In this document: one piece after another, positions 31,798-38,692 of the stretch | How the letters are laid out: each line of letters starts with the position of its first letter | Numbering within the stretch: the stretch's first letter is position 1 | NCBI RefSeq assembly: GCF_021028995.1 | Contig: NZ_JAJJZG010000007.1 | Coordinates: forward strand, 1 to 64,000 | From: Halobacterium sp. KA-4 | GTDB taxonomy: Archaea; Halobacteriota; Halobacteria; Halobacteriales; Halobacteriaceae | Length of the DNA: 64,000 nucleotides | Direction: 5' to 3' | Translations under genes and position numbers: made by a program | The notes under the pieces: model-generated | What the model was told of the DNA's origin: nothing | The model's input: the letters and a program-made list of their open reading frames with translations, nothing else | Database searches by the model: none

Positions 31798-31965
31798 ATG
31801 GACGCGAACTGGTCGTTGACAGTCACCACCGTGGTCGGCGTCGTGCTCGTCCTTGCAGTCGCTGTCGCCGCGAACGCCGCCGGTCTCACGGGCGCAGTGG
31901 CGCTACTGCCGCCACTGGCTGCCGGAGTAATCGTCGCCGCAGGAATCAGACTCGGGTACGCTTAG
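31798..31965 (+). CDS. Small membrane protein (55 aa, two predicted helices)
   Basis: A short ORF from the ATG at 31798 encodes 55 residues: a polar start (MDANWSLTVTT), a hydrophobic helix (VVGVVLVLAVAVAA), a short turn (NAAGLTG), and a second helix (AVALLPPLAAGVIVAAGI) ending in RLGYA. The codon pattern is GC3-rich and the hydrophobic design is regular, so it is likely a real small protein. Function unknown. It is divergent from the PCD gene and its stop overlaps the hemA stop. Confidence 0.6.
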   Translation: MDANWSLTVTTVVGVVLVLAVAVAANAAGLTGAVALLPPLAAGVIVAAGIRLGYA

Positions 31966-33269
31966 TCCTCGGACTCGGCGGGCGTCGCCTCGCCGGCGGG
32001 CGCGTCGAACGGCATCCCGTCCTCGAAGTCCGGGTCGAACAGCTCCAGCGCGGTCGCGATGGTCGACCAGTCGTCCTCCTCGGCGGCGTCCCGCAGGCTC
32101 TTCGTCGGTGCCGCCAGGAGTTGGCTGACCAGCGCGTCTGCCATCGACTCGAGGACTTCGCGCTCCTCCTCGGAGACCTCGCCCTCCGCAGCCTCCAGTT
32201 TCGAGACCGCCGTCGAGACCTCGCGGGCCTTCAGACGGTCGGCGCTCTCGTACATGCGCGCGATGACCTCGTCGGCGCGCTTGCGCTTGTACTGGGCGAG
32301 CAGGCGCTGGAACTCCGCTTCCAGCATCGCTTCGACCTCGCGGGCGGCGTCCTCGCGCTGCTCGCGCGTGGACTCCGTGACCGCGTGGAGGTCGTTGAGG
32401 TCGTGGACGGACACCGCGTCGAGAGCAGATGCGCCCGGCGCGACGTCCCGCGGCTGGGCGAGGTCCACGACGACCGTCTCGCCGGCGTCGGCGAGTTCGG
32501 CTTCGTCGAGGACGTGGTCGGGGCTGCTGGTCGCGGTGACGACGACGTCCGCGTCGTCGGCGTGCTCGGCTGCGTCGGCCAGCGCCGCAGTCTCGGTGTC
32601 GGCGTCGACGGCGTCGGCGACGCGGTCGGCGCGGGCGGTCGTCCGGTTGGCGACGACGACGCGGTCGACGCCCGAACTCGCGAACGCCTTCGCCGCGAGC
32701 GCGCCCATCTCGCCGGCCCCGACGACCAGCGCGCTCGCGCCGTCGACGTCGACCTCGTCCTCGACGAGGCGGACGGCCGCGCTCCCGAGCGACGTGACGC
32801 CCTCGTTGATTGCGGTCTCGGTGCGTGCGCGCTCGCCGACGTGGATGGCCTTCGTCACCGCCTGCCGGAGCACGTGACCGATTGCGCCGGCGTCCTGCGC
32901 TGTGTCGTAGGCGTCGCGCACCTGGCCGAGAATCTGGTCCTCGCCCACCACGAGGGATTCGAGGCCGGCGGCGACCCGGAGGAGGTGGCGCAGGCTCTCC
33001 TCGTGCCCCATCGCGACCGCGCCCTCTGTCGCCGGGTCGAAGCCGGCGGCGGCGAGCACGCGGCGGCCGTCCCGCGGTTCGTCCGCGACGACGTACGCTT
33101 CCGACCGGTGGCACGTCTGAATCACGAACGCTTCCTCGACGGCGGGCTCGACGAGCAGCGCGTCGAGGGCGTCCGCTTCGCTGTCCGCACTCGCGGCCTC
33201 CAATTCCGAGAGGGAGGCCGACTCGTGGGAGACGCGCACGCCCGAGACGACACCTGTGTTTCCGTTCAC
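31962..33269 (-). CDS. hemA: Glutamyl-tRNA reductase
   Basis: This 435-residue protein reduces glutamyl-tRNA to glutamate-1-semialdehyde, the first step of the C5 tetrapyrrole route. The catalytic Cys lies in IQTCHRSEAYV. A GHEESLRHLLRVAAGLESLV helix, the NADPH site ALVVGAGEMGALAAKAF and NRT follow, and a long helical dimerisation tail completes it. The GTG at 33267-33269 overlaps the stop of the precorrin-2 dehydrogenase gene by four bases (GTGA), the best-supported start; a GTG nine bases further upstream (33278) is possible. The last ~40 residues are acidic. Confidence 0.95.
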   Translation of the reverse strand: MNGNTGVVSGVRVSHESASLSELEAASADSEADALDALLVEPAVEEAFVIQTCHRSEAYVVADEPRDGRRVLAAAGFDPATEGAVAMGHEESLRHLLRVAAGLESLVVGEDQILGQVRDAYDTAQDAGAIGHVLRQAVTKAIHVGERARTETAINEGVTSLGSAAVRLVEDEVDVDGASALVVGAGEMGALAAKAFASSGVDRVVVANRTTARADRVADAVDADTETAALADAAEHADDADVVVTATSSPDHVLDEAELADAGETVVVDLAQPRDVAPGASALDAVSVHDLNDLHAVTESTREQREDAAREVEAMLEAEFQRLLAQYKRKRADEVIARMYESADRLKAREVSTAVSKLEAAEGEVSEEEREVLESMADALVSQLLAAPTKSLRDAAEEDDWSTIATALELFDPDFEDGMPFDAPAGEATPAESED

Positions 33270-33922
33270 GTGGACCACTCTGAGTTCCCCACGACGTCGG
33301 CGACGACGTCGTCGGCTGTTTGCCGGGCGTTTGTCCCACCAGTACGTAAAGCCTTCCAAACCGGCCCCGACCGCACCACCGCCCGGACCGCGTTCCGGCG
33401 GGTTTCGGGGTCGACCTCGGCCGCTCGCAACTCCGTGCGGAGGTCGGCCGTCAACTCGGCCATCGCGCCCGCGCCAGCGAGTTCGTCCTCCAGCTGCTCG
33501 CGGAGGTACTTCGAGAGCGCGGGGCTCGCGCCGCCGGTCGCGACGGCGACCGCCACCGGGTCGTCGCGAATCGTCCCGGGGACGACGACGCTGTCGGCGT
33601 CCCTGCCGCCAGATTCGTCCGCGCGGTTCACGAGCGCGCCGGCATCCCGCGCCGCGGCCACGAACGCGTCGTTCACGTCCGTGTCGTTCGTAGCGGCCAC
33701 CACGAGTGCCGGGTCCGCTCGCGCCACCCAGTCGGCGGCGTCCTCGGGTTCGGGCGCGGTCTGCACGCGCTCGGCGTCACCGAAGTCCGCGTCCGCGAAG
33801 TCGGGACTCAACACGAGCACGTCCGCCTCGCGGGCGAACTTCCGAGCCTTCCGCGCGCCGACCGGCCCACCGCCGACGACGAGCACGGTCTCGTCCGCGA
33901 AGTCGTGGAACAGCGGAATCAC
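33266..33922 (-). CDS. Precorrin-2 dehydrogenase / sirohydrochlorin ferrochelatase (siroheme synthase N-domain)
   Basis: This 218-residue protein begins MIPLFHDFADETVLVVGGGP with the NAD-binding VLVVGGGPVGARKARKF. It continues with VVAATNDTDVNDAF, ALVNRADE, and SVVVPGTIRDDPVAVAVATG followed by GASPALSKYLREQLE, as in the CysG/Met8 N-terminal domain. It oxidises precorrin-2 to sirohydrochlorin and may insert iron. It lies between the siroheme decarboxylase and hemA genes, which together form the alternative heme route of archaea. Confidence 0.92.
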   Translation of the reverse strand: MIPLFHDFADETVLVVGGGPVGARKARKFAREADVLVLSPDFADADFGDAERVQTAPEPEDAADWVARADPALVVAATNDTDVNDAFVAAARDAGALVNRADESGGRDADSVVVPGTIRDDPVAVAVATGGASPALSKYLREQLEDELAGAGAMAELTADLRTELRAAEVDPETRRNAVRAVVRSGPVWKALRTGGTNARQTADDVVADVVGNSEWST

Positions 33923-33956
33923 GCTTCCGGCCTCCGAGTGTGCCCCCGTCGGCCGC

Positions 33957-35012
33957 TCATGCGGTGTTCGCGTCAGCGCGTTCGGCGAGCCGGATGCCCG
34001 TCTTCTTCAGGATGCGCGTCGAGAACAGCGTGTCCCAGTCGTCCTCGCCGACGTCCCAGTACTCGGCCATCACGTCCCTGACCTGCTCGATGCGCTGCTG
34101 GCTCTCTTCCTCGCTACGGCCGTGCGTCATCGCGAAGAAGTTGTACTCCCAGACGCCGTCGTGGCGCGGGCGCTCGTAACAGTGCGTCACGAAGTCGAGG
34201 CTCGCCACGGCGGGTCCAACCTCTTCGACGAGGTCGTCGGGCACGTCCCAGACGGTCATCCCGTTCTCCGTGTACCCCAGCGAGTAGTGGTTCGGGATGA
34301 CGCCGACGCGCCGGACCTTCCCCTCCTCGTTGAACCGCCGCAGTGTCTCCACGACCCAGTCGGTCTCCTGGCCGATTTCCTCGGCGACCGCCTGATACGG
34401 CGTCTCCACGATTGGGAGGCCGTCCTGCACTTCCAATACGAGGTCGCGTTCCGCCGGCGTGAGCGTGTCGCGGTCGGTCGGGTCCGGCGTCGGCCCGAGG
34501 TGCGAGAGGTCCACGTCGCCGTCCGAAATCGGGCCGTCCACGAGGAACTTCGCCTCCACGCGGAACTCCTGTTGCTTCGGGAGGTTGTACGTCGGCTGGC
34601 CGGTCTCCTCCTCGATATCCGCCAACACGTCCTCGACGCGCTCGTCGTCGGCGACCGACACGACGAACCACATGTTCAGGTGTGGGTGCTCGCGCTCGTA
34701 GTTGTGCGCGACCTCCCGGTAACTGTTGACGACGTCGGCGATTTCCTCGAACTCGTCCTCGGGCGCGTGCATCGCGACTAGCGACGCGTTGCCGCCGATT
34801 TCCTCGGCGTTGATGAGCGCGCCGAACCGCGTCAGCACGTCCTCATCGTCGAGGCGGCGTACGCGGTCGAGCAGGCCCGCCGGGTCGACGTCCACGCCCC
34901 GCGACCGGAGCGCGTGCGCCGCCGGCTCGAAGGGCCGGTGCACGACCGGGAACCCCCCCTGGAACGCGTTCAGTACCGCGCGGTCCCGGTCGTCGAGGTC
35001 CGCGATATTCAT
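33957..35012 (-). CDS. Siroheme decarboxylase (AhbA-AhbB type, fused AsnC-like halves)
   Basis: This 351-residue protein has two similar halves, each an N-terminal helix-turn-helix and a C-terminal AsnC/Lrp-like domain. Half one starts DLDDRDRAVLNAFQGGFPVV; half two starts LTPAERDLVLEVQDGLPIVE. The repeated TRFGALINAEEIGG and RRVGVIPNHYSLGYTENGMT segments, and FVTHCYERP with Tyr/Arg near NFFAMTH, match siroheme decarboxylases. The enzyme removes two acetate carboxyls from siroheme to make 12,18-didecarboxysiroheme for heme (or d1 heme). It is encoded 34 bases upstream of the precorrin-2 dehydrogenase gene. Confidence 0.9.
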   Translation of the reverse strand: MNIADLDDRDRAVLNAFQGGFPVVHRPFEPAAHALRSRGVDVDPAGLLDRVRRLDDEDVLTRFGALINAEEIGGNASLVAMHAPEDEFEEIADVVNSYREVAHNYEREHPHLNMWFVVSVADDERVEDVLADIEEETGQPTYNLPKQQEFRVEAKFLVDGPISDGDVDLSHLGPTPDPTDRDTLTPAERDLVLEVQDGLPIVETPYQAVAEEIGQETDWVVETLRRFNEEGKVRRVGVIPNHYSLGYTENGMTVWDVPDDLVEEVGPAVASLDFVTHCYERPRHDGVWEYNFFAMTHGRSEEESQQRIEQVRDVMAEYWDVGEDDWDTLFSTRILKKTGIRLAERADANTA

Positions 35013-35144
35013 AGCCACTACTGAGGGAGCGCGAACCATAAACGACCCGACTCACACCGCGGACTGGGAACCGTGAATTACAGATACAGCCCGTGAGTCG
35101 GCAACGAAGAGAATTAGCGCGTGCGGCTCGCAGCTGTCCCGGAG

Positions 35145-35561
35145 TTACCCCTCGAAGCCGTCCTCGGTGATGCCGACCACGCGCTCGACGCCGTCGAGGG
35201 CGCGAATGTCGTCGATGACGGCGTCGTGCTCGCCGGTCGCTTTCCAGTACAGCACGAGGTCGAACGTGCCCTCGCGGAGCAGCTGCTGGCACTCCCAGAC
35301 GAAGTCGTCGCCGTCAAGGGTGAGTCCCTGGTGCTGGTTCACGCCGAACTCGTCGCTGTCGTTGCCCGAGTAGACGTACGTGTCGCCGACGGCGGCGTGC
35401 TCGGCGACCGCGCTGCCGGCGTCGAGGGTGAGCTGGTGGAGCAGGCTCTCCGCGCTGGAGTCGTAGGTGGTGTGGACGACCGCGCCCGCGAGCTCGATGT
35501 CGCCGGGCTGCAGGAGTTCGACCGTCTCCCGGTAGAGGTCCTCGTTGACCGTCTCGCTCAT
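35145..35561 (-). CDS. Haloarchaeal conserved protein (probably DUF5778)
   Basis: This 138-residue protein (MSETVNEDLYRETVELLQPG, later DIELAGAVVHTTYDSS and DDFVWECQQLLREGTFDLVL) resembles a haloarchaea-specific family that I believe is DUF5778. It is acidic, soluble and mixed alpha/beta, without a recognisable active site. The start is the ATG at 35559-35561; the longer frame to 35747 adds a basic leader. Its upstream region is shared with uppS on the other strand. Function unknown. Confidence 0.75.
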   Translation of the reverse strand: MSETVNEDLYRETVELLQPGDIELAGAVVHTTYDSSAESLLHQLTLDAGSAVAEHAAVGDTYVYSGNDSDEFGVNQHQGLTLDGDDFVWECQQLLREGTFDLVLYWKATGEHDAVIDDIRALDGVERVVGITEDGFEG

Positions 35562-35668
35562 GGCCGAGACGACACACCTACGAGCCATACGTGTGGCGGT
35601 TCGCCGCCGCAGCACCCGGTCGCGCGCGAGCAGAAGGCTGATACGTACGACCGTCGTCAACTCGCCTG

Positions 35669-36577
35669 ATGCGAGACTGGCTCCGTTCGGTCCTGAACGC
35701 CGGCTACGAGCGCGTCCTTCGCCACGAGGTCGACGGCGCGCCCGCACACGTCGCCGTCATCCAGGACGGCAACCGCCGGTACGCCCGCGAACGGGGCAAG
35801 GACGCGACCGAGGGCCACAGCGAGGGCGCCGAGACCACCGAGAACGTCCTCGACTGGTGTGCCGAAATCGGCGTCGAGGAACTCACGCTGTACGCGTTCT
35901 CTACGGAGAACTTCGACCGCCCCGAGGCGGAACGCCAACATCTCTTCGACCTCCTCACGGAGAAGTTCCGGGAGTTCGCGGACGCCGACCGCGTCCACGA
36001 CCAGGGCGTCCGGATTCGTACCATCGGCGAGACCGACATGCTCCCCGAGCGCGTGCGGGACGCCATCGAGTACGCCGACCGCCGCACCGTCGGCTACGAC
36101 GACTTCACGCTGAACATCGCGGTCGCGTACGGCGGCCGCGCGGAACTGCTAGGCGCTGCGCGCGGCGTCGCTGAGGCGGTCGCGGACGGCGACCTCGACC
36201 CCGAGGACGTGGACGTCGCGGAAATCGAGGACCGTCTGGAGACGAGTCCGGTCCGCGACGTCGACCTCATCGTGCGCACGGGTGGCGACGAGCGCACGTC
36301 GAACTTCCTGCCGTGGCACGCCAACGGTAGCGAGGCTGCCGCGTTCTTCTGCACGCCGTACTGGCCGGAGTTCTCGAAGACCGACTTCCTGCGTGCCGTC
36401 CGTACGTACGAGTCCCGAGAAGCGTCGTGGCGGCGGACACGAGCGGAGCGCGCCCTCGCGCTCGTTCGCGCGCTCGGCAGCGAAGTCGGGGAGGCGCGGC
36501 GCATCCTCGACCGCCTTCGGGACCACCTCCCGAACCCGCCCGAAGACGTCGAGGCGGAGGGGCAGTCAGCGGACTGA
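35669..36577 (+). CDS. uppS: Cis-prenyltransferase, catalytic type (UPPS family)
   Basis: This 302-residue protein carries the catalytic P-loop of cis-prenyltransferases (HVAVIQDGNRRYARERG, with the essential Asp), TLYAFSTENFDRP, AVAYGGRAEL and RTGGDERTSNFLPWHANG. It makes long polyprenyl diphosphates, the precursor of archaeal dolichol-type carriers for N-glycosylation. The C-terminus does not end in the usual R-x-G motif near FTDxxWPDF; it continues as a ~70-residue helical extension (TYESREASWRRTRAERALAL). The degenerate homologue downstream ends in RRFGR, so the two may form one enzyme. Confidence 0.93.
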   Translation: MRDWLRSVLNAGYERVLRHEVDGAPAHVAVIQDGNRRYARERGKDATEGHSEGAETTENVLDWCAEIGVEELTLYAFSTENFDRPEAERQHLFDLLTEKFREFADADRVHDQGVRIRTIGETDMLPERVRDAIEYADRRTVGYDDFTLNIAVAYGGRAELLGAARGVAEAVADGDLDPEDVDVAEIEDRLETSPVRDVDLIVRTGGDERTSNFLPWHANGSEAAAFFCTPYWPEFSKTDFLRAVRTYESREASWRRTRAERALALVRALGSEVGEARRILDRLRDHLPNPPEDVEAEGQSAD

Positions 36578-36599
36578 TTCGGTTCAGCGGCCGAATTCC

Positions 36600-36617
36600 C
36601 GACAGACGGGTCTGTCG
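36600..36617. terminator. Hairpin between the convergent cis-prenyltransferase genes
   Basis: Inverted repeat cgacaga (36600-36606) and tctgtcg (36611-36617) with a 4-base loop, in the 49-base gap between two convergent stops. It could terminate both transcripts, though no T-run follows. Confidence 0.4.
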
Positions 36618-36626
36618 ACGTTCGGC

Positions 36627-37235
36627 CTAGCGGCCGAACCGCCGCTGCCGGTTCTCGTAGTCCAGCACCGCGCGCAGGTAGTCGCGCTTGCGGAAGTCCC
36701 GCCAGTTGACGTCCGTGAAGTATAGTTCCGAGTAGACGGACTGCCAAATCATGAAGTCCGAGAGGCGCTCGGCGCCGATCTTGATGACGAGGTCGGGCTC
36801 CTCGGGGAAGACGAGTTCTGACTCGACGACGTCCTCGTCGACGTCCTCGGGGTTCATCTCGCCAGCGTCGACGGCTTCCGCGACGTTCCGGACGGCGGTC
36901 GCGAACTCCTGTTTGCCGCCGTGGCCGACGCTCACTTGAATCGGGGCGTCCGCGCGCTGGTCGTCGTCCGGCCCGCGGACGGCAACCTCGCGGGGTGCGG
37001 AGACGCGCGCGAGTTCGCGTTCGAGCGTCGGGACGGCGGCCTCGTCGAGGACGCTCACGTAGACAGTGACGCGGTCGGCGCCGTAGTTGAACGCCCACCC
37101 GAAGAAGTCCGCGAGCGTGTCGTACGCGCCGGCTTCGAGGAGGTCGCGCTCCGTGATGACGAGCGCGACGTGGTCGGGCGCGTCGGCGTCGTGGCGGCGC
37201 ACGCGGAGCGCGAGGTAGCGGTCGTAGAGGCCCAC
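36627..37235 (-). CDS. Degenerate cis-prenyltransferase homologue (possible accessory subunit)
   Basis: This 202-residue protein starts at a GTG (MGLYDRYLALRVRRHDADAP). It keeps the UPPS fold: FFGWAFNYGADRVTVYVSVL, DAPIQVSVGHGGKQEFATAV, LVIKIGAERLSDFMIWQSVY, then SELYFTDVNWRDFRKRDYLR and a final RRFGR. The catalytic DGNRR loop is replaced by VALVITERD, so it should be inactive alone. In eukaryotic cis-prenyltransferases a catalytic subunit pairs with a non-catalytic one that supplies a C-terminal R-x-G motif; the same division is seen here. Complex formation is inference. Confidence 0.85.
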   Translation of the reverse strand: MGLYDRYLALRVRRHDADAPDHVALVITERDLLEAGAYDTLADFFGWAFNYGADRVTVYVSVLDEAAVPTLERELARVSAPREVAVRGPDDDQRADAPIQVSVGHGGKQEFATAVRNVAEAVDAGEMNPEDVDEDVVESELVFPEEPDLVIKIGAERLSDFMIWQSVYSELYFTDVNWRDFRKRDYLRAVLDYENRQRRFGR

Positions 37236-37369: not shown

Positions 37370-38692
37370 GTGAACTGGAGTCTCCGGCGCGCCGCGGCGT
37401 TCGCGCTCGTGGCGTCGCTCTCGCTGCTCGCGCCGTTGCTCGGCCGGGCAGCGGCCGCCCCGTTCGTGCTCGTCGCCGCGGCAGCCGCCGTCGTCCCCGA
37501 GGGCTGGCTGTTCGAGGTGTTCTCGACGCCGCGCGACCGCCGCGAGGGACGGCTGTGGACCCTCGTCGGCTTCTCGCTTGCAGCCGCCGGCCTCGGTCTG
37601 CTCGTGCCGCTGTTCGAGGTGCCGGTGGGCGTGTTCGTCGCGAGCGTGCTCGTCGTCGGCTACGGCGACCTCGGCCGGCGGCTCGTACTCGCTGCTCGGG
37701 AGAGCCGCGCGCTCTCGATGGTCGGCTTCGTCGTGCTGGGCGCGCTCGCGGCGCTGGCCGGGCAGAGCGTCGCCGCGGCACTCGCCGGCCAGCCGGTCGT
37801 CACCCCGACGCACGTGTTCCTCGCGTCGAGCGGCGCGCTCGCCGCCGGGATTCTGCGGTCGGTGTTTATCGGCCGTGACGACCCGGTCGTGCTCGTGACG
37901 GTCGCGCTCCTCCTGTGGCTGTTCGCCGTGCTCGCACCGTTCGCCGACGTCTCGGCGACGACCGCGTGGGAGCGCGTCGTCGTCGCGCTCGTCGTCACTT
38001 CCGGGTTCGGCTACGTCTCCTACGCGCTGGACGCGACCTCGGTCGCCGGGATGCTGACGGGCGTGCTCCTCGGGCTGCTCGCGGTCGTGCTCGGCGACTA
38101 CGGCTGGTTCGTGGTACTCATCGCGTTCTTCGCCATCGGCAGCCTCACGACGAAGTTCCGCTACGACCAGAAACTCGAACGCGGCGTCGCCGAGGACAAC
38201 GAGGGCGCCCGCGGCACCGGGAACGTGCTCGGGAACTCCGCGGCCGCCCTCGTCGCGCTGCTGTTGTACGCCGCGCACGCACACGTGCCGCTCTCGGACC
38301 TCGCGTACCAGTTCGCCTACGCTGGCGCCGTCGCTACTGCGCTGGCGGACACGCTCTCCAGCGAGGTCGGCGGGCTCTTCGACACGCCGCGGCTCGTGAC
38401 GACGTTCGAGCGCGTCGAACCCGGGACCGACGGCGCGGTGACGTGGCAGGGCGAAGTCGCGGGGCTCGCGGGCGCGGGCCTCATCGCCGCCATCTGTGTC
38501 GCCGTCTTCGGGTTCGGACTCGCGGGCGCCGGCGTCGTGGTCGCTGCGGGCTTCGTCGGGATGACCGCGGACAGCGTCGCCGGCGCGGTCATCGAGGGCG
38601 ACGTCGTGGGGAACCAGGGCGTGAACTTCCTCGCGACGCTCTCCGGTGGCATCGCTGGCGGCGCGCTCGCGCTGCTGGTCGGTCTCGCCTAA
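37370..38692 (+). CDS. DUF92 (TIGR00297/VTE6-like) integral membrane protein
   Basis: This 440-residue membrane protein starts at a GTG. About ten hydrophobic segments are interrupted by the DUF92 motif FAIGSLTTKFRYDQKLERGV, GARGTGNVLGNSAAALVALL, ALADTLSSEVGGLFDTPRLV and GMTADSVAGAVIEGD. The plant DUF92 protein VTE6 phosphorylates phytyl phosphate. A polyprenyl or phytyl phosphate kinase role would fit a neighbour of cis-prenyltransferase genes, but the archaeal substrate is unknown. It is divergent from the degenerate prenyltransferase gene. Confidence 0.88.
   Translation: MNWSLRRAAAFALVASLSLLAPLLGRAAAAPFVLVAAAAAVVPEGWLFEVFSTPRDRREGRLWTLVGFSLAAAGLGLLVPLFEVPVGVFVASVLVVGYGDLGRRLVLAARESRALSMVGFVVLGALAALAGQSVAAALAGQPVVTPTHVFLASSGALAAGILRSVFIGRDDPVVLVTVALLLWLFAVLAPFADVSATTAWERVVVALVVTSGFGYVSYALDATSVAGMLTGVLLGLLAVVLGDYGWFVVLIAFFAIGSLTTKFRYDQKLERGVAEDNEGARGTGNVLGNSAAALVALLLYAAHAHVPLSDLAYQFAYAGAVATALADTLSSEVGGLFDTPRLVTTFERVEPGTDGAVTWQGEVAGLAGAGLIAAICVAVFGFGLAGAGVVVAAGFVGMTADSVAGAVIEGDVVGNQGVNFLATLSGGIAGGALALLVGLA

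Follow-up and report, generated by a model that had tools for sequence, protein, structure and literature searches.

Two facing genes of Halobacterium sp. KA-4 very probably encode a two-subunit cis-prenyltransferase, a heteromer making the polyprenyl diphosphate for the archaeal dolichyl-phosphate sugar carrier. They are located in a window of 64,000 nucleotides, the whole stretch of DNA that was analyzed, and we call them CAT, for the predicted catalytic subunit, and DEG, for its non-catalytic paralogue (Table 1). On comparison of archaeal sequences, the best reading of the pair is that of a heteromeric polyprenyl-diphosphate synthase inherited across the Halobacteriota.

Table 1. Positions of the CAT/DEG locus features in the window
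Feature	Position	Strand	Remarks
CAT	35669..36577	+	302 aa, ATG start; predicted catalytic cis-prenyltransferase subunit; substrate-binding residues complete; C-terminal extension, without RxG end
DEG	36627..37235	-	202 aa, GTG start; predicted non-catalytic cis-prenyltransferase paralogue; ITERD replaces catalytic loop; RRFGR-stop
Codons of catalytic DGNRR loop (CAT)	35765..35779	+	seen in sequence; invariant in alignment
Codons of terminal RRFGR and stop (DEG)	36627..36644	-	proposed to reach the partner's active site
Gap between CAT and DEG stop codons	36578..36626		49 bp; tail-to-tail; arrangement conserved across phylum
DUF92/TIGR00297 membrane protein gene	37370..38692	+	divergent from DEG; linked, not a subunit

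The product of CAT (P0001) contains HVAVIQDGNRRYA, ends with ...EGQSAD without an RxG motif, and matches the Pfam family PF01255 over its full length with a score of 231 bits. The product of DEG (P0002) carries HVALVITERD at the place of the catalytic loop, retains SELYFTDVNWRDF and ends with RRFGR; it matches PF01255 at profile positions 115-219 only (93 bits). A TTG codon is also present in the DEG frame, 27 nt upstream of the GTG start. The sequence-only reading of this DNA had described a first protein with DGNRR but no C-terminal R-x-G, a second one with VALVITERD instead of DGNRR and an RRFGR end, and genes facing each other, all of which was confirmed. Thus, the catalytic residues and the RxG motif found in one chain in homodimeric UPPS are divided between P0001 and P0002. 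A whole-genome search returned CAT and DEG as the only PF01255 genes, and the polyprenyl diphosphate synthesis ascribed to this family must therefore rest on these two. The minus-strand neighbors at 31962-35576 encode two proteins identified by eye as HemA-like and siroheme-synthase-like, an AsnC/NirDL-like siroheme decarboxylase of two domains and a DUF5778 protein, and the DUF5778 gene adjoins CAT again in several haloarchaea.

We aligned 101 CAT, 101 DEG and 30 Asgard single-chain sequences, with columns numbered by E. coli UPPS. D26, G27, N28, R29, R30, S71, N74, R77, R194, R200 and S202 are present in all CAT sequences, including P0001, and the RxG positions R242 and G244 are lost. Conversely, no DEG sequence has the DGN motif, and N74 and R77 are lost as well, whereas R239, R241, G244, Y211 and E213 are invariant and R242 is found in 98% of the sequences, being otherwise K. 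Both residue sets are at or near 100% in the Asgard enzymes. The stop codon falls exactly one residue past [RK]xG in 101/101 DEG and 30/30 Asgard sequences, but in 1 of 108 CAT sequences. A loose RxG pattern near the C terminus was found in four of the 108 CAT proteins. Two of those hits lie within long tails, and the other two, in non-haloarchaeal proteins (L154, ending RIRAGE, and L162, ending RYREGHFP), have R-x-G one residue out of register, a feature absent from their relatives. The division of labor proposed in the sequence-only reading thus holds, from alignment and C termini, for the examined pairs, which come from 31 archaeal families.

Some DEG proteins have unusual lengths. Those of two loci of one family (L144 and L147, family f19) have 155 and 167 residues, most of the N-terminal half being gone, and still have SEL(F)F as well as the terminal RRFGx; the CAT proteins of these genomes are without their usual C-terminal extension. 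In genus g8 (L066-L076, L079-L089), DEG carries an insertion of approximately 20 to 50 residues near residue 90-95. DEG seemed to be split into two matches in this genus, but we rejected a split gene since the insertion is inside a single open frame.

The residue partition can be set against what is known of related enzymes. In homodimeric members of the family, the RxG motif makes two contacts, one from its arginine to Mg2+ via water and one from its glycine nitrogen to the acceptor phosphate (PMC8131916). In human DHDDS/NgBR, the C terminus of NgBR crosses the interface, the nitrogens of L291 and G292 bind phosphate, and the terminal carboxylate contacts R37 and R85; the substitutions R290H and G292A lower activity, and deletion of the last NgBR residue or addition of one alanine diminishes it (PMC7573591). 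As the invariant end of DEG matches this C-terminal requirement to the residue, we infer that DEG supplies such an arm to CAT. CAT would bind the allylic primer and IPP and perform the chemistry. DEG would be a duplicated copy without an active site of its own that dimerizes with CAT via the usual family interface, and its C-terminal arm would cross over so that R-x-G and the terminal carboxylate close the CAT active site, as those of NgBR do on DHDDS. The contact between the two proteins, the arm across the active site and a need of CAT for DEG to reach full activity are thus predictions from sequence comparison. Single-sequence structure models of P0001 and P0002 were too poor (pLDDT 48-49, pTM 0.40-0.41) and were discarded.

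We determined the distribution of the two genes in two samples, 194 haloarchaeal genomes from 64 genera and 246 Halobacteriota genomes from 31 families. PF01255 was matched in 194/194 haloarchaeal genomes, with DEG in all 194 and CAT in 193, so that the pair is not a chance association. The draft genome G072 shows DEG alone, and its missing CAT is most likely an assembly gap. In the phylum sample, 244 of 246 genomes have PF01255 genes, nearly always two, and 244 match the DEG profile (E<=1e-20). Genomes G200 and G208, two drafts of the same genus that are about 91% complete, had no PF01255 match. A full-length CAT and a partial DEG each occur at least once in all 50 non-haloarchaeal genomes examined in detail, and in no sampled genome, haloarchaeal or other, was CAT found without DEG. 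The pair is therefore phylum-wide, beyond the haloarchaeal scope of the sequence-only reading, which had called for a check of co-occurrence across haloarchaea. In one Methanosarcinaceae-like genome (G336:C1:2055464-2056120, minus strand, family f12), the DEG gene has one in-frame TAG, which could code for pyrrolysine, reflect an error in sequencing or show that the gene is broken.

The orientation of the genes is also conserved. Among 119 haloarchaeal genomes for which both positions were listed, 86 have a convergent CAT/DEG pair within 5 kb, and no adjacent pair in any other orientation was found. The adjacent pairs of the other Halobacteriota classes are convergent in 19/19 cases. CAT and DEG are distant or on separate contigs in the rest of the genomes, which nonetheless keep both; among the haloarchaeal genomes that list both, about one in four does not have them side by side. 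In seven measured non-haloarchaeal loci (L113, L121, L162, L163, L169, L170 and L171), the two genes overlap tail to tail by 13 to 54 nt.

Alternatively, CAT might be active as a homodimer, with DEG as an optional regulator or as a membrane or partner adaptor outside the active site. CAT keeps every catalytic residue, the two genes are dispersed in some genomes, and human DHDDS alone forms a homodimer with low but real activity (PMC7573591), suggesting that CAT alone could also have some. Nevertheless, no sampled genome has CAT without DEG, and CAT has lost the RxG motif that homodimeric enzymes bear, according to the alignment and to PMC8131916. In addition, the end of DEG is fixed to the residue in 101/101 sequences, which would be needless for a regulator acting away from the active site. 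We thus consider an optional role of DEG improbable, and a two-subunit enzyme remains our preferred interpretation.

A heteromer of this type is on record in Methanosarcina mazei. According to PMC8131916, which cites Emi 2019, this archaeon has three paralogues, MM_0014 and the heteromeric MM_0618/MM_1083, whose C45-50 product is the precursor of a glycosyl carrier. PF01255 is represented exactly three times in the Methanosarcinaceae genome G303, by an MM_0014 orthologue and by a single CAT and a single DEG gene. CAT and DEG would therefore belong to the same gene families as MM_0618/MM_1083, an assignment made by elimination rather than by comparison with the M. mazei sequences themselves. 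The haloarchaeal genes described here, unlike the M. mazei pair, are convergent neighbors. Their carrier is also expected to be longer, given the C60 dolichyl phosphate reported for Haloarcula (PMC9943897) vs the C45-50 reported for M. mazei, and it is by analogy with Haloarcula that we would assign a product length to the haloarchaeal pair. MM_0014-type proteins are likewise archaeal PF01255 members and represent the third copy in some genomes, but they form a clade separate from CAT and DEG in our tree, end with TLGG without RxG, and are homodimers with short or irregular products (PMC8131916). The TLGG end is absent from both P0001 and P0002. The viral collection yielded no relatives. The parallel with Methanosarcina drawn in the sequence-only reading is thus supported, as is its proposal of a two-subunit enzyme in haloarchaea, for which the residue partition, the retention of both genes even when dispersed and the assignment to the M. 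mazei families all argue.

Outside genus g8, most of the haloarchaeal loci that we examined have the gene for the DUF92/TIGR00297 membrane protein upstream of DEG in divergent orientation, and so do 21/50 non-haloarchaeal genomes, in some of which CAT is elsewhere. Since this linkage to DEG is kept in many families even where CAT lies elsewhere, it suggests a role of the DUF92 protein in the same carrier-lipid pathway. We presume from its plant relative VTE6 that this protein might be a prenyl-lipid kinase. The persistence of the linkage without CAT could also indicate that DEG has another prenyl-lipid role, for instance with DUF92, as an enzyme or binding protein in its own right that is not paired with CAT. 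However, the features that DEG keeps are precisely those that would serve in the active site of a partner, whereas those for an active site of its own are lost, and CAT, DEG and DUF92 are side by side in many genomes, so that the linkage fits a single pathway. As the paralogues of M. mazei pair with each other (PMC8131916), a function of DEG apart from CAT appears very improbable, and we retain DEG as the second subunit.

Within the genus, the dN/dS ratios obtained from the computed dN and dS were 0.11-0.19 for DEG and 0.14-0.34 for CAT, and DEG had the lower value in each comparison. DEG is under purifying selection, and such low ratios show that it is no pseudogene. A decaying copy, as its missing catalytic loop and low PF01255 score might have indicated, is already refuted by the conservation data, namely retention in all 194 haloarchaeal genomes, dN/dS below that of CAT throughout and a C terminus invariant across the phylum, and we give that reading practically no credence.

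The organization resembles that of the eukaryotic enzymes, human DHDDS/NgBR and yeast Nus1, in combining a catalytic subunit that has no RxG with an inactive paralogue. Human NgBR, like DEG, ends with R-x-G-x, and it has LVITE at the replaced loop, identical to that of DEG, whereas yeast Nus1 is without a canonical RxG (PMC7573591). In contrast, the N-terminal membrane region of NgBR is missing from DEG; in P0002, 21 residues with no hydrophobic stretch precede HVALVITE. The NgBR and DHDDS sequences used were checked and are identical to the PDB chains. DHDDS obtained its highest score with the Asgard profile (258 bits), against 247 bits with the CAT profile. NgBR obtained 44.5 bits with the DEG profile, its best of the three, 39.8 with the Asgard profile and 32.9 with that of CAT. 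In the tree, CAT forms one clade (SH-aLRT 96), and DEG forms another, apart from the long branch of NgBR. A grouping of NgBR with DEG was considered, but the placement of NgBR is unsafe, being a long-branch join in which two long branches meet.

The Asgard enzymes are of the same fold family as CAT and DEG, as is homodimeric E. coli UPPS, but both residue sets are in one chain there, whereas they are split over two genes in the Halobacteriota. Our Asgard search was centered on a Baldrarchaeota locus (L187) found through an actin query. Most hits of that query (L181-L192) were actin genes close to those of eukaryotes but located in bacterial bins; they share as much as 92% identity with the human protein and are most likely eukaryotic contamination. 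The DEG profile matched 195 of 214 Asgard genomes, 187 of which had exactly one match, and 30/30 proteins examined in full combine the DGN loop with an RxG end. As Asgard archaea thus mostly have a single-chain enzyme with both residue sets, the comparison of Halobacteriota, Asgard and human sequences favors the view that the heteromers of archaea and eukaryotes arose separately, and an origin of DEG independent of NgBR appears at least as likely as a common one. A more complete scenario, which we regard as possible but rather doubtful, is that an Asgard-like single-chain enzyme was duplicated tail to tail in the ancestor of the Halobacteriota, its residues being divided between the copies independently of eukaryotes. 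The two-subunit enzyme would then have become obligatory throughout the phylum for a medium-length carrier, with DEG also linking the synthase to DUF92.

The heteromer of M. mazei was already known; we add that the pair is nearly universal in the phylum, that its residues are fully partitioned, that its convergent arrangement is conserved and that Asgard archaea differ from it. A two-subunit enzyme would also correct the annotation of both genes, as the catalytic and the non-catalytic one both fall under undecaprenyl diphosphate synthase models. According to a stated rule, short- and medium-chain cis-prenyltransferases are homodimeric and long-chain ones heteromeric (PMC7573591). A two-subunit enzyme present in nearly all sampled Halobacteriota and probably making a medium-length carrier would break this rule at the scale of a phylum. 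The Halobacteriota pair would represent a natural experiment on the passage from a homodimer to an obligate heteromer, one that may be tested in vivo in the haloarchaea for which genetic tools exist.
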